Counted from the stretch's first letter, positions 1 to 26,459 are shown. The stretch is DNA of 34,353 nt from Thermodesulfovibrio thiophilus DSM 17215 (GCF_000423865.1 NZ_AUIU01000003.1:1-34353); one strand, 5' to 3'. Translations and numbers: made by a program. Notes: generated by a model from the letters alone, not told the origin.

Positions 1-123
1 TATTGATTTTCTTTTTTCGTTTCCCTGTGTTATTATCTTTTTTAGGTTTTTCCATTCCCCTATATTATCACTAATATAACCATTAATCAGACACAATTTT
101 ATTTTAACCTCCTTGTAAAGCAT
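1..123 (-). CDS. Possible partial ORF open at left window edge
   Basis: An ATG at 123 opens a minus-strand frame of 41 codons that runs without a stop to the window edge. The fragment is basic and lysine-rich with no recognisable domain. A weak AGGT lies upstream of the ATG. A better AGGAGG lies inside the frame, ahead of a possible TTG start near 102. It would be divergent from the gene starting at 138 with only 14 nt between the starts, which is tight for two promoters. It may be a real gene start or chance. Confidence 0.25.
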   Translation of the reverse strand, partial: MLYKEVKIKLCLINGYISDNIGEWKNLKKIITQGNEKRKSI

Positions 124-137
124 TTTTACCTGAGGGA

Positions 138-767
138 GTGGTTATTGAATATGACCTAAAAAACGATTTTGATTTCAAGATGCCTTATACAATAGAGATA
201 AAAAATCCTATTATTCCGATGAATAAAAATGAGCCATTTTTTATAATTTCTTCTATCAGAAATGAAATTCCTATAGAAATTAAAGAACATTCTTCTGAAT
301 CAGAGCACAATGAAATGACACTATTAAAAAAAGAGCTTATTGATACAACAGTCAAGGCAATAGAACTTGAAATAGAGAGATATCGAGTATCCAATCATAA
401 AGATAAAGAAAAGAAAATTGCTTATCTTCAAAAAGAGCTTGTTAAATTTAAAAAAATAAAAGCCGAAACCTATATCATAGGAAATTTTGAAGAAAATAAT
501 ATTTTGGGAGATTCTCAAAAGTTTGGGCCACTTATACCACCAGAATTAAGGGAAATTGAGATTACAGTTACAAAAGGTTATAACTATGGCTCGATTCTGG
601 AAATTAAAGGAATGACAAGATCAGGTCCTTTTTATCATATAGCAGGAATAAAAGGTGGTAATTTTAAATATCTTACTCCAGGCAAATATAAGGTGTATCT
701 AGTTTATAAGAGAGAATATTTCGGTCTCATACCTGACTATTATGTTTATATTGGTGAGAAGAAATAA
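138..767 (+). CDS. Hypothetical coiled-coil protein, possibly 5' truncated
   Basis: Family not recognised. The 209-aa product starts at a GTG with no well-spaced ribosome binding site; the frame is open back only to 108 and contains no better start. A central segment (about residues 58-112) is rich in Glu, Lys and Leu and should form a coiled coil. The C-terminal 70 residues look like a beta-rich domain with several Gly and Tyr. No signal peptide is visible, unlike every following gene in the cluster, so the 5' end may have been lost or the true start lies elsewhere (ATG at 180 is an alternative). Its TAA shares one base with the ATG of the CHAT protease gene, so the two are translationally coupled and likely work together. 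Confidence 0.6.
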   Translation: MVIEYDLKNDFDFKMPYTIEIKNPIIPMNKNEPFFIISSIRNEIPIEIKEHSSESEHNEMTLLKKELIDTTVKAIELEIERYRVSNHKDKEKKIAYLQKELVKFKKIKAETYIIGNFEENNILGDSQKFGPLIPPELREIEITVTKGYNYGSILEIKGMTRSGPFYHIAGIKGGNFKYLTPGKYKVYLVYKREYFGLIPDYYVYIGEKK

Positions 768-3700
768 TGAAGGAGAAGATACAAAAAATTTTAACCATTT
801 TTACTATACTTTTTCTTCCTTCTTTAATTTTTGCTCAACCCAAGACTGACGCAGAAAGATTATGGGAGCTTGGAGATAAAGCGTATCAAGAGAAAAGATA
901 TAAAGAAGCAATTTACTACTATGAACAGTCCCTTGCCAGATGTGGTGGCAACGATTATGAATGCTCTGCATCAAACTATAACGGTCTAGGATCTTCCTAT
1001 GAGGATATGGGTAATGATGAAAAAGCATTATTCTATTATGAAAAAGCAATTGCTGCAGCGCGTAAACTCGACAATAAAGAATGGCTTGCTGATGATCTTT
1101 TTCTTGCTGGCTCAATTTATAATCGCAAGGCTATCGATTATGAAAAGGCTTATAGATATCTTTTGGAATCAAAAAAACTCTTCTCTGAACTTGCGATTAA
1201 AGACAGCCTTGCTATTGTATTTCATGAGCTTGGTAAGTCAGCAAGAGCACTTGGAAAGTATGAAGAAGCTATTCAGAGCTTTAATGAATCAGCAAGGCTT
1301 TATAGAGAAAAAGGAGATCACTTTTCCATAGGCGCCAATATGAGTCAGATTGGTTTAGTCTATTCAAAAATGGGTCAATATGAAAAAGCACTTTCATATT
1401 ATGAAGAGTCATTAAAGATTGCAAAGCAATATAAAAATTATGAAGCAATGTCTATTGCAATGAGGGAGATAGCTGATGCATACTTCGATCTTCATTATCA
1501 AGATAAAGCCATCTCTTACTACCTGGAAGCAATAGAGATTCAGAAAAAACACAGTCTTAAAGGTGAACTTGGAATAACCTTGAATAATCTCGGGACTCTT
1601 TATATGGATCTTGGCAGGTATGAAAAAGCATTATCTCAGTATATAGAATCTCATAAAATATCAGAGGAACTTAATGATAAAGCAACGAAGGCTACAAATC
1701 TTAACAATATTGGTCAAGTATATGCAAAACTTGGTATGTCTGATAAAGCATTGGCTTACTATCAACAATCTCTCGAAATTGAAAAACAGCTGAAACGACC
1801 TGATTATTTAGCATATGTTTTAAATAATATAGGGATGGAATATTTCAGGGTGGGCAAATATAATGAGGCATTACAGTATCTAAAAGAAGCTCTTGAAATC
1901 GATAAAAAATTGAACAACCCGTATCTTTTAGAAACCAGGCTTAATAACATTGGCGCTGTTTATCTTAGGCAGGGTAAATACAGAGAAGCGGAACAGGTTT
2001 TTCTTGAAAGAAAAAAACTTGAAGATATGATTAAACCAAATAGAATGTTTCATCCAGGACTTGTAGAGGTCTACCTCTTAACTGGCAGATATGATGATGC
2101 ATTAAAGCTGGCACAAGAGCTCCCTCCTTCCTGGCGGGATAACACAAACAGATATATTGAATATTACACACAGGTAGGTCTTGCTACAAAAGGAAAAGGT
2201 CTTTATAAGGATTCTGCAGAATATTTTGTAAAGGCAATTAACATTATTGAAGAAACAAGGAAGGCTGTATCTAATAGGACTCATTTTTATATTGGTGGAG
2301 GATATTACAGCAGATTGACTCCATACAGAAGCATTGTTTCTGTTTTGTCAAATATGAATAAAAAAGGGGATTCACTTATTTCTAATCTCAAACAATACGG
2401 TAACTCACTACCTTCCGTTGCATTTTATTTTTCAGAGCTTACAAAGGCAAAAACCCTTCTTGAAGCAATGACAGGTGCGTTAAAAAAGGTAAAAAAAGAT
2501 GAAATACCAGCATATTTAAAAGTTCGTGAGAATGAACTTCTTCGTAATCTCTCATTCATTGACAGCAAATGGGAAGATGCTCTTAAAAAAGGTGAAAAAG
2601 CAATAACAGATTTACAAAAAAGACGTGAAGGTATTAAAAAAGAGCTTGATTCTTTGATTAATGAACTAAGGCAAAAATATCCAAGATATGCAGCACTTAA
2701 TTATCCCATGCCTATTAAAGCAGAAGAATTACCTTTAAAAGAAAATGAAGTTTTATTTGAGTATGCTATCACAGATGATGCTACTTATCTATTCATTGTA
2801 AAAAAAGGAGGAATTAAAAAACTTGTAAAAATCCCGGTTACAAAAGAGAATCTTGAAGAAAGCATTAAGGCATTCATAGAGCCGATTAATATAAAAAAAA
2901 TTGATAGATTTTCGGTAGCTCGGGCAAAAAAGCTTTATGAAATCTTACTTTTAGAAGCATTGAAGGATATAGGGGAAAATGAAAAAATAATTATTGTTCC
3001 TGATGGAATTCTTGGTATTCTTCCTTTTGAGTCACTTATTATTAAAGAAGGTTCAGAATTTAATAGCAGTATTTATGTGGCAGATAGATACTCAATTACA
3101 TATTATCAATCTGCTACAATCCTTGCATTAAATAGATTTTTCAAGGGGACTCAACCCAGGAAAACCTTATTTGCAATTGGCAATCCAGTTTACAGCCCTG
3201 ATGACCCACGATATATTGCGTGGAAACATGGAAAAACATCACCTATTTTTGCATCCTCAGGAAATTATTCATTCAGAGGGCTTGCTATAAAATCAAAGTG
3301 GGGAGCCGTAACAGAAGAAGACCAGGATAATAAAATAATATTTCCTCCTCTTCCTGAGACAGAAATTGAAGTAAAAGAGATTGCCAGAATAATGGGGATA
3401 AAGCCAGAGCCGCCTGATATTTTATTAGGAGTATTGGCAAATGAGACAAATCTTAGGCTATCAGGACTTGAAAACTACAGATATATCCATTTTGCAACCC
3501 ATGCTTCACTACCTGGCATGATTCAGGGAATAAATGAACCATTTATCCTGCTTGGTCAGGTTGAAAATAGAGAGAATGATGGATTTCTAACATTGAGTGA
3601 AGTGGCTGGTATGAAACTTAATGCAGATATAGTGGTACTTTCAGCCTGTGTCACAGGAATAGGTAAAGAGGTCGAAGGTGAAGGAGTATTAAACTTTGCC

Positions 3701-3916
3701 AGAGCATTTCAACAGGCAGGTGCGATGACTGTAATAGTAAGTCTTTGGGAAGTGGCATCAGAGCCTGCTGTAGAATATATGAAAATATTGTACAGTCATC
3801 TAAAATCAGGTAAAACCAAAGAAGAGGCCTTGAAGCTTACAAGGACGTTAATTAAGGAAAAATATCCAAATCCTTTTTACTGGGCTGTGTTTATATTGCA
3901 TGGAGAGGGAGAGTGA
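767..3916 (+). CDS. Secreted TPR-repeat protein with C-terminal CHAT protease domain
   Basis: The 1049-aa protein starts with a signal peptide (residues 1-23, ending IFAQ). About residues 30-450 are tandem TPR units of the Rapsyn/kinesin-light-chain type (repeated NNLG.xY and YEKALxYY patterns). A charged helical linker (about 590-650) follows, then a CHAT domain (about 690-1047). CHAT domains are caspase-like clan CD peptidases. The His of HFATHA (residue 912) and the Cys of LSACVTG (residue 961) form the expected dyad, and the family's LWEVASEPAVEYM helix follows. The TPR array probably binds a partner or substrate in the periplasm. The start overlaps the upstream stop by one base. A WD40-caspase gene lies 1 kb downstream, so two clan CD peptidases share this locus. 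Substrate unknown. Confidence 0.9.
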   Translation: MKEKIQKILTIFTILFLPSLIFAQPKTDAERLWELGDKAYQEKRYKEAIYYYEQSLARCGGNDYECSASNYNGLGSSYEDMGNDEKALFYYEKAIAAARKLDNKEWLADDLFLAGSIYNRKAIDYEKAYRYLLESKKLFSELAIKDSLAIVFHELGKSARALGKYEEAIQSFNESARLYREKGDHFSIGANMSQIGLVYSKMGQYEKALSYYEESLKIAKQYKNYEAMSIAMREIADAYFDLHYQDKAISYYLEAIEIQKKHSLKGELGITLNNLGTLYMDLGRYEKALSQYIESHKISEELNDKATKATNLNNIGQVYAKLGMSDKALAYYQQSLEIEKQLKRPDYLAYVLNNIGMEYFRVGKYNEALQYLKEALEIDKKLNNPYLLETRLNNIGAVYLRQGKYREAEQVFLERKKLEDMIKPNRMFHPGLVEVYLLTGRYDDALKLAQELPPSWRDNTNRYIEYYTQVGLATKGKGLYKDSAEYFVKAINIIEETRKAVSNRTHFYIGGGYYSRLTPYRSIVSVLSNMNKKGDSLISNLKQYGNSLPSVAFYFSELTKAKTLLEAMTGALKKVKKDEIPAYLKVRENELLRNLSFIDSKWEDALKKGEKAITDLQKRREGIKKELDSLINELRQKYPRYAALNYPMPIKAEELPLKENEVLFEYAITDDATYLFIVKKGGIKKLVKIPVTKENLEESIKAFIEPINIKKIDRFSVARAKKLYEILLLEALKDIGENEKIIIVPDGILGILPFESLIIKEGSEFNSSIYVADRYSITYYQSATILALNRFFKGTQPRKTLFAIGNPVYSPDDPRYIAWKHGKTSPIFASSGNYSFRGLAIKSKWGAVTEEDQDNKIIFPPLPETEIEVKEIARIMGIKPEPPDILLGVLANETNLRLSGLENYRYIHFATHASLPGMIQGINEPFILLGQVENRENDGFLTLSEVAGMKLNADIVVLSACVTGIGKEVEGEGVLNFARAFQQAGAMTVIVSLWEVASEPAVEYMKILYSHLKSGKTKEEALKLTRTLIKEKYPNPFYWAVFILHGEGE

Positions 3917-4183
3917 ATGCATGATCAAAATATAGTTGTTAATATTTTGTTTTCTAATTATTGGATTAAGCTTTAATCTTTCTATGAACCGTCTTTCTTA
4001 AAAAATGCTTTGACTGAATAATAAGAATCATAAAATAATTGAAGGTTTAAATAGTAAGGATTAATAGTATAAAAACATATTCTTTTTAGTAGAAGTTCGG
4101 ATTTTAAATTATTGTAGGATATTAAATTTAAATCAGATGAAGATTGCAAAATTTTTTATCTTGAAATGGAAGGGAAATATACC
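3917..4183. other. Intergenic, no gene seen
   Basis: AT-rich spacer between the CHAT gene and the promoter of the Cys-rich gene. It has stops in all frames, and no RNA gene or strong terminator hairpin was recognised. Confidence 0.5.
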
Positions 4184-4212
4184 TTGACAGAGTGTACTAA
4201 TTTAATTAGAAT
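4184..4212 (+). promoter_or_regulatory. Sigma70-type promoter of the Cys-rich secreted protein
   Basis: TTGACA (4184-4189), a 17-nt spacer, then TAGAAT (4207-4212). The first base of the mRNA would fall near 4219, giving a leader of about 40 nt. The match is near consensus, so this small gene is probably transcribed strongly and independently of the CHAT gene. Confidence 0.7.
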
Positions 4213-4259
4213 TCAGTTAAGAGATTATAAAAATAAAAGAATGAATGCAGGAGGACAAG

Positions 4260-4700
4260 ATGAAACGTTTATTAATTTTTTGTTTGATTGCTGCTTTATT
4301 TCTGGTATCTCAGGTTGGAGCACGCTCACCCTTTAATGAAACAATAGATACCGCTGTTGATAATAAAAAGATGGAAAAAGAATGCCAATGGAGTAAGTTA
4401 TCAACTGATCCACAGCCTCAACAAGAAAGGAACAAATTTAAAGAGGAGATTAATAAAAAAATTCCAACATCCATAACTAAAAGTGAAACGAAAGGCTCAG
4501 ATCTCTATAATCCGGTTAATGCAGTTTGCAAAAGCGAAAAACAAATGCTTGCAAGTAGTGTAAACTGCACTCCGTGGAATATGCAACCTAATGGATGTTA
4601 TGAAAGAGTATGCTGTTGCGATAAAAATGGAGCTTCCTATTGCGAAAGATGTTGTCCAGACAGTTCAGGGAAATGTACTGCTCATAGAGTAAAGTGCTAA
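4260..4700 (+). CDS. Small secreted 12-cysteine protein
   Basis: Start chosen at 4260 because AGGAGG (4249-4254) sits 5 nt upstream; an in-frame ATG at 4245 precedes the RBS and would add only five residues. The 146-aa product has a clear signal peptide (about 1-21, ending QVGA). A polar, Lys/Gln/Glu-rich middle (22-88) carries one Cys at 42. The C-terminal domain holds the rest: Cys 90, 103, 113, 118-120, 128, 131, 132, 139 and 146. Twelve Cys in the mature part is even and fits six disulfides, with an unusual CCC run. The layout signal, pro-region, compact Cys-rich tail parallels the knottin precursor at 15924. No family recognised. It sits between two clan CD protease genes and has its own promoter. 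Confidence 0.8.
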   Translation: MKRLLIFCLIAALFLVSQVGARSPFNETIDTAVDNKKMEKECQWSKLSTDPQPQQERNKFKEEINKKIPTSITKSETKGSDLYNPVNAVCKSEKQMLASSVNCTPWNMQPNGCYERVCCCDKNGASYCERCCPDSSGKCTAHRVKC

Positions 4701-4976
4701 AACAACTTCATATTTCATATAAAAGAATATTAAAAAAGCAAAGATAAAAAATGTTTCTTTTTTAAGACAAAATAAAGTGATATTGAAGAAATTACCTATG
4801 AAGAGTGGGAAGTCTTATTTATTATATTTACAGCTATATAGTTATAAATTTAGGTTTAATTTTTAAAGTTTATAAGCAATAGTTAGGTTAAGATCAACTA
4901 TAAGAGGTTGCTCTTTCTATAAAAAGAGAGTTATTGGTGAGCCCGATGCTGTGAAATTTATGAGATCAACTAAAAG

Positions 4977-7331
4977 ATGCTTTTCATAAAAATAATCAAA
5001 TATGTAGTTTTATTATTAATTTCTGTACTTATCTGGTCATGTACGCTACAGCCTTATGTTAAGTTAGAATCTCCTAGTATGCAGGCTGAATTTAAAGAAA
5101 AAGTTTCGCCAGTATTAGGAAATTTTAAAATTTCTCATGATGGCAGATATGTTCTAGCTATTAATTACAATGGGCAATTCAGTTTATACAATATAGCAGA
5201 TGGCATACTGATACTGAACGGAAGTTTTATACCGAACACAGCTGTAGGAATGAAAATTGGCGGGGCTTGCGCAGTGTCACCTGATAGCAAATATTTTGCT
5301 GTAGGAGGAAGAAAAACAATCTTTTTATGGGACATTGAGAATAAGGAAGAAATTGGCAGCCTTGATATAGAAGAGGTAATGGATATGGCATTCTCTCCTG
5401 ATGGAAGATACCTTCTGGCAGTCGCGCCAGCTGATTTAGGTTTTCTTACATATATACATCGACCAATTATGAGACTGTTTGATGTTAAAACATTAAGAAA
5501 AGCAAAAGATTTTGATATAACTGACGTAAGAGAGCAAGATTTCAATAGAAGAGTATTTTTCGCAAAGGATGGGAAATATGTATATACTTCTTCAGCTCTT
5601 TATTTAAAATTATGGAATGTATCAACTGGAAAATCAATTAAGGAAGTCAGAATAAGGCCATGGTTTTCTTTAGATGCAATTACAGAAATTTCTCCTGACG
5701 GCAGATATATTGTTTCAGCAAATACCGCAGGTGAAATTATTGTATGGAATGCTGAAAATCTTAATGCAATAAAAAAAATCAAAACTGATCAGACAATCCT
5801 GTCAGTGGATGTTTCACCTGATGGTAAATATATCATATGTGGAGGAAGTGATAAAATTGTTGTTCGAGATTTCAATACACTGAAAGAGATAAAAACAATA
5901 GAACATTATACATTTGGTTCGCAGATGAATGCTGTGTATGTGAAGTGGTCAGCTGATGGTAAAAGAATAATATCATCAGCTGGAGATTCAATAAGAATAT
6001 GGGATTTTGATTCCGCTAAAGAAATAGCATCGTTCATTAGTTTTGAAAATGGTGAATGGATAGTTTTAACTCCTTCCGGATATTATAACAGTTCTGCTCA
6101 TGGTGACCAGTATTACAGTGTAAAGGTTCAAGACAAAGAGTATACTGTGGAACAATTGCGTGAAGCTTTTTACAGACCTGATATCGTAAAGCTTGCTCTA
6201 TCTGGTGGTTCTATCAAAGATCTAAAGACAATAGCAGAAGTCAAACAGCCACCGGTTGTATCAATCGTAAATACTCCATCAACTACAGATAAAGACGCAA
6301 TAAAGATTACTGTCAAATTGGAAGATCAAGGAGGAGGGATAGGGGATGTGAGATTATATCTAAATGGTGTATCAGTACTGATTGATAGCTCAAGAGGGAT
6401 TACAGTAAAACCAAAAGAAGGAGAAAAGGTAGTATTTAAGGAATATACAGTAAAGCTTACAAGAGGAGAAAATAACATCTCAGCCGTAGCATTCAATGCA
6501 GAAAACACCATGCAGAGTAACCCTGCCACACAGAGAGTAATAGCAGATATAAAATCATTTAAGAAGCCATCCCTTTATGCGGTTGTAATTGGGATAAATG
6601 AATACAAAAACCCAAAGCTCAAATTAAAATATGCAGTGGCTGATGCCAATCTATTTGCTGACACATTAAATACTGTGGCAGGCATGATGTTTGATAGGGT
6701 AGTAATAAAAAAACTAATTATCCCAGCTAACACAACCAAGGAAGCCATCAAGAAAGAAATGAATGAAATGAAGTCAATTAGTCCAGATGATGTATTTGTA
6801 TTCTATGTAGCAGCTCATGGCACTGTGGATGAAGGTGAGTATTTTCTATTAACTGCCAATGTTGGTTCTGTCAGTACACATAGATTAAAAGAGGATGCTC
6901 TTACCCAGACAGACATAAAAGAACTTATAGCAAATATTCCATCTACCAAGAAGATGGTCATAATAGATACCTGTAATGCCGGTAAACTTGGTGAGGCATT
7001 ACTGCAGACTGCGCTGCTTACCAGAGGTATGAGTGAGGATGTGGCGATGAAGATACTCTCTAGGGCTGTGGGTTCTACAATTATATCAGCATCCACATCT
7101 CTTCAGGAGGCGATAGAGGGATACAATAATCATGGACTTTTTACCTACATTTTATCAGAAGGCTTAAAGGGTAAAGCAGACACAGACAGGGATGGATTTA
7201 TAAAGACAATAGAGCTAGCAAATTATGTAGATAGTGAGGTGCCAAGTATTGCAGAGAAGATATTTAAGCATCCCCAATACCCAACAATAATACCGATTGG
7301 CACATCTTTTCCTATAGGAAGGGTGAAATGA
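4977..7331 (+). CDS. WD40-repeat lipoprotein with C-terminal caspase (peptidase C14) domain
   Basis: A 784-aa lipoprotein with lipobox LIWSC, predicted lipidated Cys22. About residues 40-370 form a WD40 beta-propeller (repeated FSPDGRYLLA, LWD and IWDFD motifs). Next come an Ig-like segment (about 425-530) and a caspase-type domain (about 550-765). The catalytic pair is His614 (AAHGTVDEGEY) and Cys666 (DTCNAG). The helix after it, LTRGMSEDVAMKIL, and the HGLFTYILSEGL motif are typical of bacterial C14 proteins with WD40 repeats. It should sit membrane-anchored in the periplasm or at the cell surface, with the propeller as sensor or docking surface. The ATG has only a weak AAAAG ahead of it. 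Natural target unknown; metacaspase-like Arg/Lys specificity is possible but not shown. Confidence 0.9.
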   Translation: MLFIKIIKYVVLLLISVLIWSCTLQPYVKLESPSMQAEFKEKVSPVLGNFKISHDGRYVLAINYNGQFSLYNIADGILILNGSFIPNTAVGMKIGGACAVSPDSKYFAVGGRKTIFLWDIENKEEIGSLDIEEVMDMAFSPDGRYLLAVAPADLGFLTYIHRPIMRLFDVKTLRKAKDFDITDVREQDFNRRVFFAKDGKYVYTSSALYLKLWNVSTGKSIKEVRIRPWFSLDAITEISPDGRYIVSANTAGEIIVWNAENLNAIKKIKTDQTILSVDVSPDGKYIICGGSDKIVVRDFNTLKEIKTIEHYTFGSQMNAVYVKWSADGKRIISSAGDSIRIWDFDSAKEIASFISFENGEWIVLTPSGYYNSSAHGDQYYSVKVQDKEYTVEQLREAFYRPDIVKLALSGGSIKDLKTIAEVKQPPVVSIVNTPSTTDKDAIKITVKLEDQGGGIGDVRLYLNGVSVLIDSSRGITVKPKEGEKVVFKEYTVKLTRGENNISAVAFNAENTMQSNPATQRVIADIKSFKKPSLYAVVIGINEYKNPKLKLKYAVADANLFADTLNTVAGMMFDRVVIKKLIIPANTTKEAIKKEMNEMKSISPDDVFVFYVAAHGTVDEGEYFLLTANVGSVSTHRLKEDALTQTDIKELIANIPSTKKMVIIDTCNAGKLGEALLQTALLTRGMSEDVAMKILSRAVGSTIISASTSLQEAIEGYNNHGLFTYILSEGLKGKADTDRDGFIKTIELANYVDSEVPSIAEKIFKHPQYPTIIPIGTSFPIGRVK

Positions 7332-7444
7332 ATTGAAATATCAAAATGTGCTATAGAAAGTGAAAATTACCTTGCATTGCTAATTGGAAAAATATATAAT
7401 TTTAAAAAGTGTACAAGATTTTTCAATAACTATGTGAGGATGAT

Positions 7445-9721
7445 ATGAGAAAATTTTTGATTATATTAGGGGTTCTTGCTTTTGTTTTCGCATGTTCTCC
7501 TTTATCAGAAACTAAAAAAGATATCCAAGAACTGACTATACCATCTGATGAGCTACCCAAAATAGTTGCTGTTCTACCATTTGAAAACAATACAGAAGAA
7601 AAGGGTATTGGCAACCAGGTAAGAAAAGCCTTTTACAATCACTTCAGCTCAAAGCCATACATAGATATAGAGCTTAATGTTGTTGATGAAAAGATTATTC
7701 AGTTAGAAAAATCAAGAGATAAAAGCATTCTTGAAATACCATCCAATGAGATATGTCAATTTATTGGTTGTGATGGTTTAATTTATGGGAAAGTCACAGA
7801 TTATAAAAAGATTTATGCTGTAGCTTACTCTCAGCTTGGAGTAGAAGCAGAGGTCTGGCTGATAAACGCTAAAACAGGAAAAGAAGTTTTCAGAATTAAA
7901 GATTCTGTAAGATACCACGAAGGCGGTATCCCTCTATCTCCTTTAAGTGCTGTAATGACAGCAGTTTCTAATGCAATGAATATAAGAGATATTCAGCAAG
8001 TGAGAATGATTAACGAACTCTGTTACAAATTCAATGAGAAGATTCCTGCACCTGCAGGAATTACTATTGAGGAAAGACCTGTTATTAAAGAAGTACTCAC
8101 AAATGCAAAAAACTCTCCTTTTGGAAAGGGTAAAATTATTCAAGTTGGTGCAGAAGGAGACAAAGGAATGGTTGCAACATTTGATATCGGTAATTTCAAA
8201 AAGGGTATTTCAATGAAAGAAACGCAACCAGGAATCTATATTGGAGAATATGTTGTGCTTCCAGGAGATAATGTTAAGGAGGCTCCTATAGTTGTTTCAC
8301 TCAGGAAAATTGCAGGTTATGAAACTCAGTGGATTGATGTATCAGGTTTTGTAACAATTGATACCACTCCTCCGCCTCAGGTAAAAGGTCTAAGAGCAAA
8401 AGGGTTTAATGATAGAATTGAAATTTTGTGGGAGCAGGTAAAAAATGTTCATGACCTTAAAGGATATAAGATTTTACGAAGTGAACAGGCTCTTACAGGG
8501 TTTAAAGAGATTGGTAGAGTTGAGATCAATTTTTTTGAAGATAAAGATGTTCAATATGGAAAGCATTACTACTACCGTGTTATCGCTTTTGATGATGCAG
8601 AAAATGAATCAGAAATTCAGGATGCTGTAAAAGCTTCGCTAACTAATAAAGAGCCTCAGATTCTTTCAGGAACAATTGAGAAAGATCTGGTTCTTTCAGG
8701 AGTGTATATTGTTAAAGATTTTTTGAAGATTCCTTCAGGATTAACTCTTAAAGTTGAACCTGAGAGCAGGATAATGTTTAATGAGAGCGCAATAATTATT
8801 GTAGAAGGCAGAATTGAGATAGATGCTGGTGAACTATCTGTGGAGTTTATTCCTTTGGAGCAAAAGAAATGGAAAGGCATCGAGATTAAGAATGGATATG
8901 TAATGATGAAAGGATTCAGGATTAAGCATGCTGAAAATGGTATAAACATCAGCGCATCTGGAGGAGTCTTACAAAACGGTATAATAACAGATTGTTATAA
9001 AGGGATCTCCATATTCGGTATCCCGTCTCCTCTTTTACAAAATCTAACAGTCTCAGGTAGTGATACAGGTATTGAACTTATCAAGACTAATACAAAATTG
9101 CTTGCAAATAACATTTTCCAGAATAAAACAGGTATAAAAGTTAATGGATTTTCAGGTGAAATAAAAGATAACAATATATTTGATAATACTATAAATATTT
9201 TCTCTGAGAAACCTGTAAAGATTGATGCGAATTACTTTGGATCAATAAATCTGGAAGAAATGAGGCTTGAAAAGGTTCAATTATCTAGGGTTTATGATGA
9301 TAAAACTCCTGAAGGTAAAGTGGTTTCAGTGATTATTAATCCTTATGCAGTTTTATCCATTGCAGAACGTCAAAAAAAGGCAACAGAGTTTATAGCTGAG
9401 GCTGGCAATTACTTTAGGAAGAGAAATTATGGAAAGGCGGTAATATTATTTGAAGAAGCATTAAAAGCAGAGCCATCTGCCGAGGGTTATTACTATACTG
9501 CCCTGTGCTATCATGAAATGAAAGAAGATGAAAAAGCATTAAACTATCTCAAGGAAGGAGTAAATAAGTTTCCAATGGATTCAGGATTGAAGAAGTCATT
9601 AGGTCTTATTTATTATCAGATAGGTAAAACAGAAGAGGCCAGAAAGATTTTTGAGGAAGTGTTACGTCTCAATCCAGAAGACAGTCAAATAAAATTTCTA
9701 ATTGAAAGAATTGATAAATGA
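7445..9721 (+). CDS. Multidomain lipoprotein: DUF799/CsgG-like, Ig-like, FN3, beta-helix, TPR
   Basis: A 758-aa lipoprotein with lipobox FVFAC (Cys17). About residues 38-195 (IVAVLPFENNT to DIQQVRMINEL) resemble the DUF799/CsgG-like nucleotide-binding-type fold of outer-membrane lipoproteins. Residues about 225-305 look like an Ig-like module. Residues 309-400 form a fibronectin type III domain that begins TPPPQVKGLRA. About 405-615 are short hydrophobic repeats of a right-handed beta-helix (pectate-lyase/NosD-like). About 645-755 are TPRs. It is probably an outer-membrane surface or assembly factor. The stop overlaps a possible ATG of the next gene (9718), suggesting coupling. It follows the caspase lipoprotein by 113 nt and is probably co-transcribed with it. 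Confidence 0.8.
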   Translation: MRKFLIILGVLAFVFACSPLSETKKDIQELTIPSDELPKIVAVLPFENNTEEKGIGNQVRKAFYNHFSSKPYIDIELNVVDEKIIQLEKSRDKSILEIPSNEICQFIGCDGLIYGKVTDYKKIYAVAYSQLGVEAEVWLINAKTGKEVFRIKDSVRYHEGGIPLSPLSAVMTAVSNAMNIRDIQQVRMINELCYKFNEKIPAPAGITIEERPVIKEVLTNAKNSPFGKGKIIQVGAEGDKGMVATFDIGNFKKGISMKETQPGIYIGEYVVLPGDNVKEAPIVVSLRKIAGYETQWIDVSGFVTIDTTPPPQVKGLRAKGFNDRIEILWEQVKNVHDLKGYKILRSEQALTGFKEIGRVEINFFEDKDVQYGKHYYYRVIAFDDAENESEIQDAVKASLTNKEPQILSGTIEKDLVLSGVYIVKDFLKIPSGLTLKVEPESRIMFNESAIIIVEGRIEIDAGELSVEFIPLEQKKWKGIEIKNGYVMMKGFRIKHAENGINISASGGVLQNGIITDCYKGISIFGIPSPLLQNLTVSGSDTGIELIKTNTKLLANNIFQNKTGIKVNGFSGEIKDNNIFDNTINIFSEKPVKIDANYFGSINLEEMRLEKVQLSRVYDDKTPEGKVVSVIINPYAVLSIAERQKKATEFIAEAGNYFRKRNYGKAVILFEEALKAEPSAEGYYYTALCYHEMKEDEKALNYLKEGVNKFPMDSGLKKSLGLIYYQIGKTEEARKIFEEVLRLNPEDSQIKFLIERIDK

Positions 9722-9738
9722 TTAAAAAGGAGACTTGT

Positions 9739-10587
9739 ATGAAAAAGCTAGTTTGTGTAAGTTTAATGCTTATAATAATGATTTCAACTGGTTATGCAGG
9801 GCAATCAACTATTGCAGAGTCCGAAGGCTATGCTTGTATGGGTGAGGATAGGACAAAGAGACAGACAGAGGAAATAGCACTTCAGGATGCAAAGAGAAAG
9901 GCACTAGAACATGTGAGCACATACATCCAATCCGAGACACAGGTCAAGGATTTTGAACTCCAAAAGGACATTATTAATGCATATGCCAATGCAAAGGTGA
10001 GAATCATTGAACAAACTGCTAAATGGGATAATGACCCTCCAAAAGTAGGTGATTGCTATAAATTGACCATAAAGGCAGAGGTTATACCTGATGAGGAGTC
10101 AATGAAAAGAATTTTTCAATCAAAGGAATTTAGTGATCCTTCAACACCTCTTAAAGTGCAGGCCTGGACAGAAAAAAAGGAGTATAAAGCTAATGATAAG
10201 GTTAAGATATTTCTCCGAGGCAATAAACCCTTTTATGCAAGAATATTATACAGACAGGCGGATGGTACATTACTTCAAATACTTCCAAATCCTTATAGAA
10301 AAGATAACTACTTTCAGGGAGGAGTTGTATATGAGATACCATCTGGTCCTGACAGGTTTGAACTTGAGGTATCTCCACCTTTTGGAGAGGAAGAGTTTAT
10401 TGTCTATGCAAGCACGGGAGAGCTTGGAAATCTGGAGGTAGAGCCATCAAGTGGAGTGTACAAGATAAAAACAAGGTTTGAAGATGTTGGAGACAAAACA
10501 AGAGGAGTTACAATTGTACAGAAAGGAAAATCTTCTAGTTCAGAATTTTTTGAGGAAAGATTGAGAATAAACACAAATGATAATTAA
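9739..10587 (+). CDS. Secreted DUF4384 protein with LPP20/FlgT-like N-terminus
   Basis: Start set at 9739 because AAGGAG (9727-9732) lies 6 nt upstream and the product then begins with a clean signal peptide (MKKLVCVSLMLIIMISTGYA). An in-frame ATG at 9718 overlaps the previous stop but puts residues ahead of the signal. Mature residues about 25-115 resemble the LPP20/FlgT N-terminal fold (ALQDAKRKALEHV, then a Lys-rich beta hairpin). About 125-215 are a DUF4384 domain (KVKIFLRGNKPFYARILYRQ, ILPNPY, FELEVSPPFGEEEFIVYAS). DUF4384 is known to co-occur with, or be fused to, bacterial caspase-like peptidases, which supports a common pathway with the two clan CD proteases upstream. The C-terminal 50 residues are polar. 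Precise role unknown. Confidence 0.8.
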   Translation: MKKLVCVSLMLIIMISTGYAGQSTIAESEGYACMGEDRTKRQTEEIALQDAKRKALEHVSTYIQSETQVKDFELQKDIINAYANAKVRIIEQTAKWDNDPPKVGDCYKLTIKAEVIPDEESMKRIFQSKEFSDPSTPLKVQAWTEKKEYKANDKVKIFLRGNKPFYARILYRQADGTLLQILPNPYRKDNYFQGGVVYEIPSGPDRFELEVSPPFGEEEFIVYASTGELGNLEVEPSSGVYKIKTRFEDVGDKTRGVTIVQKGKSSSSEFFEERLRINTNDN

Positions 10588-10771: not shown

Positions 10772-12874
10772 TTATTTTTGTTTTGCAGTAAAAACTCCAT
10801 CCCATTCTGAAGAAGGTGGATCTAAAATATAACTTCCGCATCTTTCTTTAAAAAGTATTGAGGCTTTATCGTTAAACTGAGATGCAATATTACTGAATAA
10901 AGTTTCTGCTTCTTTAAATTGTCCTTTTCTGTAAAGATGTAGAGCTTTTTCAAAATCTTCTATGGCTGAAGTGATTGACGAACTTTCTTCAATAATTTCA
11001 AAGATTTTTACAGGTTTGTTTTTACCTTTAACCCTTATTAAGTCAAGTTCTCTTATTAAAAAATTTTGTTCCATTTTTTCAGAATAACATGATGATTCCA
11101 TCGCATTGAAACTGCTTTCACTTATAATTATTTTTGTTCCATAAAGCTTGTTTAATTCTTCAAGCCTTGATGCAAGGTTAACTGTATCTCCAATTGCAGT
11201 ATAGTCAAAACGTGTACTTGTTCCTATATTTCCTGTAATTGCTTCCCCTGTATTTATCCCAATGCCTATATTTATCTCAGGGAATCTTAATTCATTAAAT
11301 TTTTTATTTAATTTTTTAAGCTCTTTTAACATTTCTAAAGCTGTAAAAACAGCTTCTTTAGCATGTTCTGGTAAATTCACAGGTGCATTATAAACTGCCA
11401 TTATTGCATCTCCGATGTATTTATCAAGCATTCCACCGTGTTTAATAACTATGTTAGTCATAGGATCAAAATAGTTATTAAGTAGCGTTACGAGTCTTTC
11501 AGGTTGAAGGGATTCAGCGATTACTGCAAAATTTCTAATATCAGAAAATAAAACAGTTATTGTCCTCTTCTCACCACCGAGTTTTAAAGCATCAGGCTTC
11601 TTAATCAGAATGTTTACAACGTCAGGAGACACATAGCTTGAAAATGCTTTTTTAAGAAATTTGCTTTTCTTTTCAACCATCAGATTTCTGTACGCTTCTG
11701 ATGTAACATAGCACATTGAAAGAGAAAAGAATGGATAGATTAACGAAAGATCCAGAAAATATTTTTTAAATATGAAAAAATTAACAATATATGTAAAAAA
11801 GACAACAATAATGAAAAGACACAAGGATATAACTGTTCTCGGAATTTTTGTAAAAATAAGAATGAGCAAAATAACAGGAATAATGATAAATAAAATATCA
11901 AGTCCTGCAACCCATGCATTGTAAATTAAGTATCGCCCTTGTAGGATATTTGATACTGTTGTGGCTGATATTTCAACCCCTGGCATAACAGGATCAAAGG
12001 GTGTATTACGGATGTCAGCTATTCCAATTTCTGTTGCACCCACCAGAACAATAACATCTGGAGGGATTTTTATTTTCCCATCTATGATGTCAATGGCAGA
12101 TACAGTTTTAAATGAGCCAGTCCTTCCATAATAATTAATTGTGAGGCTACCTGATTCACTGACAGGAATTGTTTCATTTTTAATTTTTATGCTTTTTATA
12201 CCATATTCAGCAATCTCTACAATCAATGGACTATTTTTGAGTTTACTGATTGTTTGGAGTGCAAGATGAGGATACAGCTCTCCTTTATAAAGAATAACTA
12301 AATTAATCTTTCTATAAACTCCGTCTTCATCAGGAAAAATATTGAAAAATCCCATGCTTGCTTTGATTGTTGGAATATTGAGCTCAGCATAGGGAAACTC
12401 TATCACATGTAGAGGTTTTATCCCTTTTGATGTTTTTAATATTTTAATTCTTGATTCTTTAAGGTTTATGTAAGACTGCCTATTAACAGATGTTTCATCT
12501 TCCCGAAAGTAGTAACCGGCAACTGTGTTTGTCATGTTTATCATATTTGAAAGAATTCTGTCAGATTCAGGATTTGAAGTTTCTGAAAATACAATATCAA
12601 GAGCAATCACTTTTGCTTTATTTATATTTTTTATGAGTTTCGAAATTACTTTTCTGTCCCATGGCCATCTTCCAACTCTGTCTAGACTTTTTGAGTCTAT
12701 AGCTACAATTATGACTCTGCTGTCAGGCTCAATCGATCCACGAAGTCTGAATCTGGCATCCTTAAGTTTAAGGTCAATAGAGGCCAAAAAGTCTATTTTA
12801 ATGAAATAAAGAAAAACGACAATAAATGATGAAAGCAGACCGATACAAAGAAAAATTAATAGCTTATTTTTCAT
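10772..12874 (-). CDS. CHASE2-domain class III adenylate cyclase
   Basis: A 700-aa membrane protein that should make cAMP from ATP in the cytoplasm in response to an extracytoplasmic signal. One N-terminal TM helix (about 5-27) is followed by a CHASE2 sensor (about 30-310; DARFRLRG, RWPWDRKVI, ALDIVFSE), three TM helices (about 322-390), and a class III cyclase domain (435-620). Metal-binding Asp445 (FSDIR) and Asp489 (YIGDA), ATP-selecting Lys485 and Asp557, and transition-state Asn566/Arg570 (NLASR) are all present, so an active adenylate rather than guanylate cyclase is expected. A short TPR-like tail (about 640-690) follows. Its start overlaps the FecR gene by 11 nt. FecR-CHASE2 cyclase pairs are a recurrent arrangement. 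Confidence 0.92.
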   Translation of the reverse strand: MKNKLLIFLCIGLLSSFIVVFLYFIKIDFLASIDLKLKDARFRLRGSIEPDSRVIIVAIDSKSLDRVGRWPWDRKVISKLIKNINKAKVIALDIVFSETSNPESDRILSNMINMTNTVAGYYFREDETSVNRQSYINLKESRIKILKTSKGIKPLHVIEFPYAELNIPTIKASMGFFNIFPDEDGVYRKINLVILYKGELYPHLALQTISKLKNSPLIVEIAEYGIKSIKIKNETIPVSESGSLTINYYGRTGSFKTVSAIDIIDGKIKIPPDVIVLVGATEIGIADIRNTPFDPVMPGVEISATTVSNILQGRYLIYNAWVAGLDILFIIIPVILLILIFTKIPRTVISLCLFIIVVFFTYIVNFFIFKKYFLDLSLIYPFFSLSMCYVTSEAYRNLMVEKKSKFLKKAFSSYVSPDVVNILIKKPDALKLGGEKRTITVLFSDIRNFAVIAESLQPERLVTLLNNYFDPMTNIVIKHGGMLDKYIGDAIMAVYNAPVNLPEHAKEAVFTALEMLKELKKLNKKFNELRFPEINIGIGINTGEAITGNIGTSTRFDYTAIGDTVNLASRLEELNKLYGTKIIISESSFNAMESSCYSEKMEQNFLIRELDLIRVKGKNKPVKIFEIIEESSSITSAIEDFEKALHLYRKGQFKEAETLFSNIASQFNDKASILFKERCGSYILDPPSSEWDGVFTAKQK

Positions 12875-13916
12875 TCTCTAAAAGTTTTAAGAATGTTTCA
12901 ACATTTATTATATATCTCCCATTTGGATACTCTTTTTTATACTGAGTGAGTCTTTCTATCGCCTGTTTTTTAAATCCAAGTTCGTAAAGTGTCATCCCCG
13001 TGAGATACAGCGCTGTTTCTTTCTGCGGGATCTCAGAGTCTTCTTCAACAACAGTGAGATACTCAGAAAGTGCAGCTTCAGGTTTTTTTAAAAATCTTGA
13101 ATATATAGCTCCTCTTTCAAGTCTTGCATCTGCCCTTATTTCAGGATTATCACTAAGATCAATGGCTATCTGAAAAATGTACAAGGCTTCTTCATATCTT
13201 CCAGAATCCGCAAGATAATGTCCATAGTTAATATCCCATCTTGCAATTATATGAGGAAGAGATTCTGAAATCTTCCAATCTACAGGAGGAGTTACATCTG
13301 TAATATGGGAAAGTCCATTTTTAGCTTCAGAAAGAAGTGTTGCTGTTTCTACTTTAACAGGCTCTGTTGGAGTAAATCCCCTTGTATTTTGAATAATTGT
13401 ATCAGGTCTAAGAGGTTTTTCAACTGTATCATATCCTGCTATGTAGGCTGTATCTTCATTCCCCAAAAATACATTTGCATTCTCTTGATTCAGTATCATA
13501 AACTCCGTTCCCTTTATTCCCGCCACTGCTGTTGGTGTTTTTATCCTGTAATTAGTTGTTTGTCCTGTGAGTTTTACAACAGTTACTCTTAATTTTCCCT
13601 TTGTAATATAGAAAACTCCATATTTTCTATCTTTATCAATTAAATACTCTGAAATCTCAAACTCTGTATTTTCTGAAAGAGTAAATCTACTTCCATCACA
13701 GAGTTTAATAACTGACCAGCTTCTTGATTCTGTTTTTATCCAGTATCCTTTTTCAACTAATAATTCAGTTTTGGCTTTTTTATAAGAGAGTCCTGTTTTT
13801 TCTCTGTAAAGAACTGTTCCATAAATCTCCTCAATCTCTCCAATTGATGCACAAATCGCACCCGGAAGACAAAAGAAAATAAAGATGCTAAAAAGTATGA
13901 CTCTGCTTGCTCTCAT
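12864..13916 (-). CDS. Secreted FecR-domain protein with C-terminal TPRs
   Basis: A 350-aa protein with a signal peptide (1-23, ending GAICA). The FecR domain (about 45-150) includes GYWIKTESRSWSVIKLCDGS, FEISEY and RIKTPTAVAGIKGTEF; the last motif is the family signature. A proline-containing linker is followed by TPR-like helices (about 215-345; YEEALYIFQIAI, AALSEYLTVVEE). In FecR proteins the domain acts in the periplasm to sense or transmit a ligand-bound state. Here there is no TM anti-sigma segment, so it probably partners the CHASE2 cyclase whose gene it overlaps by 11 nt. Third gene of the minus-strand operon that begins with the knottin precursor. Ligand unknown. Confidence 0.85.
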   Translation of the reverse strand: MRASRVILFSIFIFFCLPGAICASIGEIEEIYGTVLYREKTGLSYKKAKTELLVEKGYWIKTESRSWSVIKLCDGSRFTLSENTEFEISEYLIDKDRKYGVFYITKGKLRVTVVKLTGQTTNYRIKTPTAVAGIKGTEFMILNQENANVFLGNEDTAYIAGYDTVEKPLRPDTIIQNTRGFTPTEPVKVETATLLSEAKNGLSHITDVTPPVDWKISESLPHIIARWDINYGHYLADSGRYEEALYIFQIAIDLSDNPEIRADARLERGAIYSRFLKKPEAALSEYLTVVEEDSEIPQKETALYLTGMTLYELGFKKQAIERLTQYKKEYPNGRYIINVETFLKLLENEK

Positions 13917-13997
13917 AATTAGCTCATTTCAAACAACTATACCTCAACCCTCCGTGCATTAGCATGAATTACTGTAAACTATATTTACCTCAGATTT

Positions 13998-15665
13998 TTA
14001 CAGCCTTTTCGCTTTTACTTTAAATACAAAGTCATAGTTTAAAATATCTTCCCACTTGAAACCTTTAATAGTTGAGCGAGTATCATCAGCATCGCCATAT
14101 GGATTTCCTGGTATATAAAACCAATTCATGATTACATCTCCTGAATGCCTCAGCACTATCCAGTATCTACCTTTGGTTATTTTTGGTTTTTCAGGAAATA
14201 TGAAATCAAGCCAGTAATAACCAGGACGGTTCTGAATATTATCAAGGAATACAGGATTTGACCTAAATCCCTTTAACGATGGTTTTCCATGTTCATCTGA
14301 TATAAGGTCAATATAAATTGTTCCATCACCACCGAATTTTCTCATTGCAAGTGATAGTCTTTCGATCTCTAAAGGTTCATTAACTGTGAATGCCTGAGCA
14401 TATATGTATTGCGATGTGACATATTCAGCTGTTTCTTTATCAAGAATCTTTACTGCCCTGTCTCCTATGATTTGATATAGATCAACAAGATTTGGGAAAT
14501 CCATATTGCCAAATTCAAATACTTTTTCCGATGGAAGAGGTTTAAATTCTTCTTGAGGAGGTGGTTTTTGAATCATTTCCTTTTTTACAACCATTTTATT
14601 GCTTAAAATATAAGCCTTAGGTGATGATTCAGAAGCTTTTGGTGAAATATGAATTCTATCAGATAAAAATTTTGCATCAACATTTTCGCTATATGCTGGT
14701 AGATATGGGTATGCTCTCCATGTATCATTAACTTCATCTGATTCAAGTGCGTGGGTTTGTTTTATATGTCTTGATGATGTGAATTGCTTTGACTGCTGAG
14801 GATCATAAGAAAGCCATCCAAGATCAGGAAAATAAACTTCTATCCAGGCATGTCCACCCTGTCCTATACTCTGAACAAGATAGTTCTTACCAAGTGGAAT
14901 TTTCCATGGGTATTTGAGGGATAATCCTCCGACAACTCTTGCAGGAATTCCAGAAGCTCTTAAAAGTGCAACTGTAAGATGCGCCAAGTTCTGACAGTTT
15001 CCCTTGCCTGTTTTTAATGTATACAGTGCATCAAATTGTTGAGGATTATAGGTGTATCTTACATGGTCAATAACCCAGTTAAGTATCCTGGTTATAGCTT
15101 CATACTCTGTTTTTGCATCGTTTGTGAGTTCATGAGAAAGTTTCAAGATATCGGCATTTTCAGATTGAACCAGTGCAGTTGATTTTAAAAATAACTTTTC
15201 AGTATCAGGAACATTTTTTAAAGGAAACTCCGCTGTTGAACTTTCTGCTCTTAATTCTGAATTCACAGAAGCTTCGAATGTTATTGTTATTCTTACGGAG
15301 TTCTTAAGATTTCTCCATTTTACAAAGCCCCATTGATTACCATATTGGTCAATTTCTTTTTCAAATTTTTCTGGTTCAGGCTCAATTTTTATATCCAGAT
15401 TATTTATGTGCTGACTAACAAACTTATTTGAAAAATTCATTGGAAGCGCAAATTTAAATTTCAGTGTTTCTAAAGGTTCTGAGACATTAAAACGCATTTG
15501 CTGAGAGACTTTAACTGTACTTTTAAGATTGCCTTCAAGAATAACTGTTTTTGCTGAACCAAAAAAAGGATAAAAAATAAAAAACAATATTATGATAAGT
15601 TTGATAGTTATTGCCAGTTTTTGACAGGGTAGGCATTGCCTACCCTGTGCCTTAGTTGCACACAT
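13998..15665 (-). CDS. Secreted transglutaminase-like (papain-fold) protein
   Basis: The transglutaminase-like core spans about residues 185-290 (numbered from the ATG at 15665), with the Cys224 (GNCQN), His272 (GGHAW) and Asp288 (YDPQQ) triad. It could be a protease, amidase or cross-linker. An N-terminal beta-sandwich (about 40-180) and a C-terminal beta-rich domain (about 410-550) flank it. The start is uncertain: the frame is open to 15755, but translation from there would run through the whole C-terminal half of the knottin gene in another frame. ATG 15665 gives a long n-region followed by a hydrophobic stretch (LIIILFFIFYPFFG) that works as a signal peptide, and overlaps the knottin stop by 14 nt. 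It has no Shine-Dalgarno, so translational coupling is likely. Second gene of the knottin operon, so the knottin could be its substrate. Confidence 0.85.
   Translation of the reverse strand: MCATKAQGRQCLPCQKLAITIKLIIILFFIFYPFFGSAKTVILEGNLKSTVKVSQQMRFNVSEPLETLKFKFALPMNFSNKFVSQHINNLDIKIEPEPEKFEKEIDQYGNQWGFVKWRNLKNSVRITITFEASVNSELRAESSTAEFPLKNVPDTEKLFLKSTALVQSENADILKLSHELTNDAKTEYEAITRILNWVIDHVRYTYNPQQFDALYTLKTGKGNCQNLAHLTVALLRASGIPARVVGGLSLKYPWKIPLGKNYLVQSIGQGGHAWIEVYFPDLGWLSYDPQQSKQFTSSRHIKQTHALESDEVNDTWRAYPYLPAYSENVDAKFLSDRIHISPKASESSPKAYILSNKMVVKKEMIQKPPPQEEFKPLPSEKVFEFGNMDFPNLVDLYQIIGDRAVKILDKETAEYVTSQYIYAQAFTVNEPLEIERLSLAMRKFGGDGTIYIDLISDEHGKPSLKGFRSNPVFLDNIQNRPGYYWLDFIFPEKPKITKGRYWIVLRHSGDVIMNWFYIPGNPYGDADDTRSTIKGFKWEDILNYDFVFKVKAKRL
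15624..15648. repeat. Perfect 11-bp inverted repeat (hairpin) after knottin stop
   Basis: ACAGGGTAGGC (15624-15634), a 3-nt loop, and its exact complement (15638-15648). It begins 3 nt after the knottin stop codon and lies inside the N-terminal coding region of the transglutaminase gene. It is not followed by a T-run in either direction, so it is not a classical terminator. It may be an mRNA-stability or attenuation hairpin setting a high knottin to low enzyme ratio, or a small inserted palindromic element. Confidence 0.75.
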
Positions 15666-15924
15666 TATTTTTACAACTACCGCTACAACACTGACTGTTG
15701 CTTGTGCACCACCATCCAGAAGGAGTACATGGCTTTGCAGCAAACAATTGCTCATTGCTTGATTGCTTTAGTGCTTGAGCTATCTCCAAGTGGCTCTTTT
15801 CCTGCACACCCTTAGCGTCATTGTTATTTTGAAAACCTGAGTTATTATTTTGAGCAACAGTAGAACCAATAAAAAGAACAGTTATAAAGCATACAGCTAT
15901 AATCAGAGAAGATTTTGTAAACAT
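15652..15924 (-). CDS. Secreted knottin (inhibitor cystine knot) prepropeptide
   Basis: A 90-aa product with a signal peptide (1-24, ending STVAQ region), an Asn/Gln-rich pro-region (about 25-64), and a 25-residue C-terminal cysteine domain. Cys 66, 73, 79, 80, 84 and 89 give the pattern C-x6-C-x5-CC-x3-C-x4-C. That is the inhibitor-cystine-knot framework; omega-conotoxin MVIIA has C-x6-C-x6-CC-x3-C-x4-C. GGGGAGGT (15931-15938, complement) stands 6 nt before the ATG, an excellent RBS, and a TTGAAG/TACAAT promoter lies upstream. It is the first gene of an operon with a transglutaminase-like protein, a FecR protein and an adenylate cyclase. Function unknown: secreted effector, protease inhibitor, antimicrobial or signal. 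A small disulfide-rich surface protein is the cautious alternative. Confidence 0.85.
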   Translation of the reverse strand: MFTKSSLIIAVCFITVLFIGSTVAQNNNSGFQNNNDAKGVQEKSHLEIAQALKQSSNEQLFAAKPCTPSGWWCTSNSQCCSGSCKNNVCN

Positions 15925-22574: not shown

Positions 22575-22647
<73 letters not shown>

Positions 22648-22718
22648 TCCTTATTTATCAATGGTTTATAAAAATCACAAAAAGTAAAAATTTCAGCACT
22701 GTAAGAAAATTGTAAGAA

Positions 22719-23801
22719 TCAGGTACTTTTTTGAGCGATTTTTGGAGTATTTTGTCCTAAAAAATCATCCAGTTTTTTAACTGCATCCTGTTTATGTTCC
22801 GGTGCCAGGTGAGAGTATCTAAGGGTCATTTTAATGTCCTTGTGTCCAAGCAGTTCTTTAACTGTTGTTAAATCAACTCCGTTCATAACAAGCTGGCTTG
22901 CAAAAGTATGCCTTAAGTCGTGGAAGTGAAAGTCTTTTATGCCTGCTTTTTTACAAGCAGTAGACCAGCTTCTTTTAATGTCAACAAACCTTTTACCTGT
23001 TTCAGGATTAACAAACACGTATTCAGTATCAAGTCTTCTTTTAGTAAACAAATGGATAAACAGTTCTTTAAGAGTATTATTTAATGGTATTTCTCTTCTT
23101 TCGCCGTTTTTGGTTTCATTGCCAAGCAGGATAAAACCGTGTTTTAAATCAACCTGATCCCATTTTAAGTTCAGGATTTCTCCTCTACGCATTCCTGTGT
23201 TAAGTGCAACTTTTACTATTGGATAAATGTGTTTATCACAGGCATTAAGAAGGCTTTGAATCTCCTCGATTGACAAAAATCTTAACCGCTTATTGTTTTC
23301 CTTAAGCCGTTTAACCTTTCTTATGCGGTTTAAGATGCTGTCATCAACCATACCCCATTCATTGGCTTTTGTAAACATATGTGCAAGCACCGCTGTCACT
23401 CGATTGGCAGTTGCTGGTTTCTTTCCTTTTTGAAGGAATTCAGTTTGAAGCTGTTCAATGGTATAGGTGTTAAAGTCAGTAAGTTCAAAACTACCAAAAC
23501 GATTAACCAGGTTTTTTATGATATAGAATTTCCAGGCTTTAAAAGATTTCTGCCTTCCTTTACAATACTCTGAGTACCGTTCTGCAAGTTCTTTAAATGT
23601 ACAGGTTTGTTTCTGATCATTCTGCTCAGGTATCCAGTGGTTTAGTATTATCCTTGCTTTAAGTGCTTCAAGGACTTTTACTGCGGTTTTATAATCTGTA
23701 GTACCCGTTGATTTCTGATAATGCCTGCCGTTTACTGTAAAATTCATCCACCATACATTGCCTCTTAGATAAAGGCCGTCTTTACTGTTTTTGCTTTTCA
23801 T
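22719..23801 (-). CDS. Tyrosine recombinase (phage/island integrase)
   Basis: A 360-aa integrase. The N-terminal Arm-type beta domain (about 8-50, LYLRGNVWWMNFTVNGRHYQKSTGTTD) is followed by a SAM-like core-binding domain (about 65-165) and a catalytic domain (about 180-350). The catalytic set is present: Arg in TGMRRGEIL, Lys in the beta-hairpin (GNETKNGERREIP), HxxR in HDLRHTFAS, His in ELLGHKD and the nucleophile Tyr in RYSHLAP. It appears intact. Its 3' end faces the 3' end of tRNA-Ala, the standard geometry for integration into a tRNA 3' end. An excisionase-like gene lies just upstream. It marks the left end of the accessory island. No matching second attachment site was seen in the window. 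Confidence 0.93.
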   Translation of the reverse strand: MKSKNSKDGLYLRGNVWWMNFTVNGRHYQKSTGTTDYKTAVKVLEALKARIILNHWIPEQNDQKQTCTFKELAERYSEYCKGRQKSFKAWKFYIIKNLVNRFGSFELTDFNTYTIEQLQTEFLQKGKKPATANRVTAVLAHMFTKANEWGMVDDSILNRIRKVKRLKENNKRLRFLSIEEIQSLLNACDKHIYPIVKVALNTGMRRGEILNLKWDQVDLKHGFILLGNETKNGERREIPLNNTLKELFIHLFTKRRLDTEYVFVNPETGKRFVDIKRSWSTACKKAGIKDFHFHDLRHTFASQLVMNGVDLTTVKELLGHKDIKMTLRYSHLAPEHKQDAVKKLDDFLGQNTPKIAQKST

Positions 23802-26434: not shown

Positions 26435-26459
26435 AACATTGTTAGGAGGTCATGATATT

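Follow-up and report, generated by a model that had tools for sequence, protein, structure and literature searches.

Linked genes for exported TPR-CHAT and WD40-caspase proteases and a CHASE2 adenylate cyclase in Thermodesulfovibrio thiophilus: a possible modular cluster for proteolysis outside the cytoplasm

A contig of Thermodesulfovibrio thiophilus DSM 17215 (NZ_AUIU01000003.1, 34,353 nucleotides, here called the window) encodes a TPR-CHAT protease, a WD40-caspase, a lipoprotein with beta-helix repeats and a DUF4384 protein, and convergent to these genes are those for a CHASE2-class III adenylate cyclase, a FecR-domain protein and a transglutaminase-core protein. The window is the entire contig C3, from a genome of 1.87 Mb with a completeness of 99.8%. 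This arrangement raises the question of what two clan CD proteases with export signals could do beyond the cytoplasmic membrane, and whether they belong to one system with the genes for cyclic AMP (cAMP) formation. In the reading favored here, which is based on sequence comparison and to which a probability of roughly 45% is assigned, the stretch from the CHAT to the DUF4384 gene would form the central part of an extensive, modular set of clustered genes that serves regulated, cAMP-wired proteolysis outside the cytoplasm.

Linkage and co-occurrence of the protease genes

For the analysis of gene neighborhoods, the CHAT, C14 (caspase), DUF4384, FecR, cyclase and lipoprotein genes were searched in the same 101 genomes and co-occurrence statistics were calculated for the 91 good genomes. 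The genes were found to co-occur and to cluster, as the original prediction of an envelope-located proteolytic system had expected of CHAT, C14, DUF4384, FecR and CHASE2. Fisher p values, in which shared ancestry is ignored, ranged from 2.5e-5 for CHAT with C14 up to 4e-14 for DUF4384 with FecR, and co-occurrence with a serpin gene was weaker by the same measure (p 0.04 to 0.005). FecR and the orthologous cyclase were present in exactly the same 24 genomes. The clustering was seen in genomes of 2 Mb: all six genes lie within positions 1,808,673-1,832,096 of the single contig of G001 and within 942,376-984,109 of the single contig of G026, which has six C14 genes. The single contig of G012 holds CHAT, C14, DUF4384, FecR and cyclase in about 24 kb, that of G009 CHAT, lipoprotein, two C14 and DUF4384 genes in about 26 kb; in G014 (three contigs), about 13 kb span DUF4384, lipoprotein, C14, FecR and cyclase. 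The proposed tie to the FecR and CHASE2-cyclase genes is borne out by two relatives in which they form one packed same-strand run with CHAT and C14; the order in G026 is FecR-DUF4384-C14-cyclase-CHAT with touching or overlapping open reading frames (ORFs), and the similar run of G037 has a small ORF preceding CHAT. The linkage of these genes, including the FecR/CHASE2-cyclase pair, is well supported.

When genome contigs were scanned with the CHAT alignment, relatives turned up in Thermodesulfovibrionales/Nitrospirota and also in records under the names Deferribacteraceae, Deltaproteobacteria, Syntrophales, Geobacteraceae/Trichlorobacter and Nitrospinota. Within the genus, CHAT and DUF4384 orthologues were not found in G003, G004, G007, G011 and G013, all of which are at least 95% complete. 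The CHAT gene appears to have been exchanged between lineages and the cyclase to have been inherited vertically, because the CHAT tree mixes families f1 and f12 (G012 with G026, support 100/100; G008 with G064, 82/88) and CHAT identity to the window protein stays flat at 66-70% across both families, at a DnaE identity of 85% or 62%, whereas f1, f12 and f2 are separate in the cyclase tree.

Exported proteases, their partners and the serpin

The ORFs and coordinates of the TPR-CHAT, WD40-caspase, beta-helix lipoprotein and DUF4384 genes were as first noted, and Pfam agreed with the assignments. The CHAT domain (PF12770) follows the TPR repeats at residues 719-1046 (E 1e-51, 176 bits against a cut-off of 24), and its dyad, H912 (3500-3502) and C961 (3647-3649), is invariant in 10 orthologues. 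The caspase combines WD40 repeats with Peptidase_C14 (PF00656) at residues 534-769 (E 1e-16, 61.6 bits against 21.4) and has the dyad H614 (6816-6818) and C666 (6972-6974); both residues are kept in all 48 complete C14 domains of the fetched loci, the four other rows being fragments. The His/Cys dyads of both proteases are thus intact, as had been proposed. A search by sequence with the two protease domains, CHAT and C14, against solved structures returned no meaningful relative.

Signal peptides and lipoboxes were judged by eye and by a simple heuristic. That every product of the stretch looks exported is well supported, and this includes the first one: TPR-CHAT had been taken to lack a signal peptide, which was wrong, since one (MKEKIQKILTIFTILFLPSLIFA-QP) is present and conserved in the orthologues. 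The lipobox of the WD40-caspase (IWSC) is atypical, and close orthologues have type-I-like signal peptides.

The number of C14 paralogues varies up to about ten per genome. In the genome of the window, a second exported WD40-caspase gene (L052 10986-13892, G000 C14) stands alone amid housekeeping genes, and at L101, L102, L103 and L090 exported C14 genes are expanded locally, with small ORFs among them that resemble HEPN/nucleotidyltransferase or PIN-type toxin-antitoxin genes. At L043 (G066 C82), tandem CHAT genes are broken by stops and frame breaks beside a truncated DUF4384 gene; the system decays in some lineages.

The lipoprotein has a GNA1162-like part, NosD-type repeats and TPR according to Pfam, and orthologues with 56-72% identity in 18 relatives. 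A structure model from two sequences was confident only in the beta-helix and TPR parts and otherwise poor; the protein is labelled beta-helix because of the NosD match and a confident stretch at residues of about 405-560, where the predicted local distance difference test score (pLDDT) is mostly 65-93. A Foldseek search with this model listed TPR and designed helical proteins, driven by the TPR part, and was set aside. DUF4384 orthologues were found in 19 relatives; the structure predicted from an 8-sequence alignment had a mean pLDDT of 54.6 and was not used.

Between the two protease genes lies a gene that was absent from the earlier listing of the locus. The family alignment of its Cys-rich product displays a variable leader followed by an almost invariant C-terminal domain with nine conserved Cys residues, and the family is confined to one genus (9 of the 396 genomes of a phylum sample). 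Its gene stands beside MlaE/F-like genes in G004, in G013 and at a second copy of G008; in G013 it also adjoins a SIMPL-like gene, and in G011 it is near an ORF like orf0long (see below), the neighbors in these four genomes being recognized by unscored sequence resemblance. The Cys-rich protein is possibly a processed peptide or a structural protein; as a guess, the system might act on it as a substrate or yield it as a product.

A serpin gene (PF00079) was detected in only 5 of the 101 genomes, inside the cluster in G012, G014, G026 and G037 and beside homologues of DUF2330-like and TPR-PDZ families in G100. The cluster serpins are exported and have an intact inhibitory hinge (ExGTEAAAA, here EEGTEAAAATA), and the P1 residue of the reactive loop, counted by eye from the hinge, is Lys in all four of them and Arg in the serpin of the fifth genome; 194 solved serpin-like sequences were matched by the serpin query. 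The basic P1 is indirectly consistent with the substrate preference of orthocaspases, which are described as cleaving after Lys or Arg (PMC6426788). Since metacaspases of plants and of a green alga are inhibited by serpins (PMC10609998), the C14 enzymes are by analogy plausible targets, and trypsin-like proteases are equally possible. In the eukaryotic pairs AtSerpin1-AtMC9, AtSerpin1-AtMC1 and CrSERPIN-CrMCA-I, the action of a serpin on a caspase/metacaspase-class protease was shown biochemically (PMC10609998), whereas the putative bacterial serpin-C14 pairing is supported by gene linkage and a basic P1. The functions of prokaryotic serpins have been called enigmatic (PMC8233489).

cAMP genes, the wider cluster and the insertion-sequence split

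Recurrent neighbors in relatives comprise a Crp-family regulator that binds cyclic nucleotide monophosphates (cNMP), an SLH-TPR lipoprotein, the exported and unassigned family F5, SIMPL, DUF4139/4140, an FlgT_N-TPR protein, a weakly DUF2330-like protein, a TPR-PDZ protein, CsgG, the transglutaminase and the serpin. MlaE/MlaF/MlaD-like genes and an auxiliary lipoprotein, named by sequence features and family similarity and without a Pfam scan, are recurrent as well. The export-signal heuristic, in which signal peptides and membrane anchors are not told apart, was positive in nearly all members of most recurrent families, compared with 38% of the other ORFs of the same loci, and negative for Crp and the Mla ATPase, as expected. 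The transglutaminase gene, whose product is probably exported from a later start, is linked in G026, G039, G016, G001, G012 and G014. In the window, FecR adjoins it at 13917-13997; G001, G008, G012 and G014 have four Mla-type genes between the two, which the genome of the window seems to have lost at this site.

The association with cAMP, first proposed from the convergent cyclase operon, has been strengthened. The cyclase is the only class III cyclase (PF00211) gene of its genome, and in most cluster genomes the Crp query from the cluster finds its best match in the cluster's own Crp-family gene. This gene is no more than about 20 kb away from CHAT in G001, G008, G009, G012, G016, G026, G037 and G039, and it heads a Crp-SLH-F5-SIMPL run that precedes CHAT in G001, G008, G009 (where two extra small ORFs follow Crp) and G012. 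The position of the Crp gene and the single cyclase support a putative cAMP link.

As read from the sequence, the window contains one part of its cluster and the Crp-SLH-SIMPL half is on contig C17 of the same genome, where the gene order is Crp-SLH-F5-SIMPL-orf0long. The orf0long gene, for an exported cluster protein of about 690 amino acids, is interrupted: by tblastn, residues 1-465 of an intact homologue match the end of C17 and residues 463-687 match window positions 114-758. Most likely, an IS256-type element sits in this gene and broke the assembly, because both breakpoints share the 8-mer TTGTAAAG (other copy at C17:73331) and a 15-bp terminal stretch in inverted orientation, and the end of C17 carries a fragment of a mutator-family transposase (Transposase_mut).

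The features of the window are collected in Table 1. Farther downstream, 22575-28282 looks like an integrated element, with tRNA-Ala (22575-22647) adjacent to a phage-type integrase gene (22719-23801), a nuclease-like gene and a gene for a helix-turn-helix protein with a SocA/Panacea domain. At 29564-33960, genes for a 5TMR-LYT histidine kinase, a LytTR response regulator and a CstA transporter stand in a row that resembles known LytS/LytTR-CstA (pyruvate or carbon-starvation) systems.

Table 1. Features of the window, with positions counted from its first nucleotide
Feature	Position	Strand	Evidence or remark
IS256/mutator-type insertion sequence, right end	1..120	.	8-bp target duplication TTGTAAAG at 113-120; contig breaks within element
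orf0long, 3' part	114..767	+	tblastn of intact homologue; listed ORF 138-767
Exported TPR-CHAT protease	767..3916	+	Pfam; signal peptide and dyad kept in 10 orthologues
Exported Cys-rich protein	4245..4700 (start probably 4260)	+	Family alignment
Exported WD40-caspase (Peptidase_C14), probable lipoprotein	4977..7331	+	Pfam; dyad
Lipoprotein with a GNA1162-like part at the N terminus, repeats of a parallel beta-helix and TPR at the C terminus	7445..9721	+	Pfam; model
Exported DUF4384 protein	9718..10587 (start probably 9739)	+	Pfam E 8e-24
CHASE2-class III adenylate cyclase	10772..12874	-	Pfam
Exported TPR protein with a FecR domain; its gene is the partner of the cyclase gene	12864..13916	-	Pfam
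Transglutaminase-core protein, recurrent cluster member	13998..15755	-	Pfam

Competing explanations and known systems

In a cluster for regulated proteolysis outside the cytoplasm, the FecR-CHASE2 cyclase would report the state of the envelope as cAMP, and expression would be set by a Crp-family protein. Activation of the C14 and CHAT proteases would fall to scaffolds and sensors at the cell wall or outer membrane, made up of exported WD40, TPR, beta-helix, DUF4384 and CsgG/FlgT-like proteins. Cleavage by C14 enzymes would follow Lys or Arg, and a serpin, if present, would restrain these enzymes. The most likely outcome would be that surface proteins are processed or remodelled as envelope conditions change, with the Cys-rich and other exported cluster proteins as substrate candidates. 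An extracytoplasmic caspase-serpin cascade, in which exported orthocaspases and TPR-CHAT would act in sequence, restrained by the serpin in some species and switched by CHASE2, cAMP and Crp, is considered doubtful; if true, it would be a prokaryotic counterpart of extracellular protease-serpin cascades.

Several observations weigh against the proposed cluster function. The serpin is absent from the genome of the window and from most clusters, the cluster of G014 and some others lack CHAT, and in more distant phyla CHAT often occurs without the other parts. Gene order and content vary between clusters; the lipoprotein gene of G012 is 143 kb from the cluster and the FecR-cyclase pair of G009 about 104 kb. 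Moreover, E. coli-type CRP sites are at chance level in the window (19 against 17.5 expected).

Conflict or defense at the envelope, in which the exported caspase and CHAT would sense a phage or competitor at the surface and trigger suicide or the destruction of attacker proteins, is an unlikely explanation. It would fit the roles of CHAT and C14 proteases in bacterial immunity, e.g. in Craspase (PMC9729208), the exchange of the CHAT gene between families, the patchy presence inside one genus and the variable number of C14 paralogues. However, PADLOC finds no system and only generic TPR, caspase and Pycsar-type cyclase similarity, the conserved set is without a nuclease, pore-forming or NTPase sensor part, and its constant partners are proteins of the envelope together with a cyclase inherited vertically. 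In Craspase, a CHAT domain with a His/Cys dyad likewise comes after TPR repeats (Csx29 of type III-E CRISPR; PMC9729208, PMC9935389), but Csx29 is cytoplasmic and bound to Cas7-11, whereas here the signal peptide is conserved and the partners are envelope proteins; no Cas7-11/gRAMP or CRISPR part was found among the ORFs of the window or their Pfam matches. Pycsar combines a cytoplasmic PycC cyclase with an adjacent cNMP-binding effector, a pairing not found here; in the cyclase of the window, a CHASE2 receptor domain forms the N-terminal part and FecR is the partner, and the cNMP-binding partner in the cluster is a Crp-type DNA-binding regulator.

The maturation of one surface structure seems similarly improbable. 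Transglutaminase, SLH, CsgG/FlgT-like, Mla-type and Cys-rich proteins would serve to assemble an extracellular layer or appendage or to attach it, with the proteases trimming its subunits as a constitutive step instead of a stress response. SLH, CsgG, FlgT_N, transglutaminase and SIMPL proteins do recur, and the Cys-rich gene keeps beside SIMPL or MlaE/F-like genes even without CHAT, but the clusters have no obvious subunit or secretion channel in common, and the cyclase, the Crp-family genes and the serpin indicate regulation. A loose collection of exported genes, each useful by itself and without a joint function, in a region prone to recombination is very unlikely. The reshuffled order, the insertion sequence that divides the cluster of the window and the parts found alone or broken speak for it; packed gene runs and the same families repeatedly tightly linked and co-occurring across several taxonomic families speak against it, and aggregation by chance was rejected on this linkage and co-occurrence.

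To our knowledge, HetF of Anabaena has no known linkage to C14, FecR or cyclase genes. This CHAT-family protein is tied to the cell envelope and development and is a component of the cyanobacterial divisome (PMC8406250). WD40 is the commonest partner domain of orthocaspases and metacaspases, as in the caspase of the window, and surveys of these proteases report likely signal peptides, cell-surface operons and 1.11 metacaspases per 1000 proteins in Nitrospirae (PMC3501461, PMC8283722). Of 473 cyanobacterial orthocaspases in these surveys, 23 carry a fused DUF4384, whereas here DUF4384 is a separate exported protein, and the surveys describe no cluster with exported CHAT, FecR, CHASE2 cyclase, a Crp-family regulator and a serpin. 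In the literature searched, no paper was found on CHAT with CHASE2, a serpin or the periplasm. The protease families are known, and their exported arrangement with cAMP genes, and sometimes a serpin, appears not to be described in that literature.

Bacterial caspases and CHAT proteases are mostly discussed as cytoplasmic enzymes of immunity or cell death. If the cluster, a conserved gene neighborhood of some anaerobic bacteria, functions as proposed, clan CD proteases would also run regulated proteolysis outside the cytoplasm, and some prokaryotic serpins would have a natural target.

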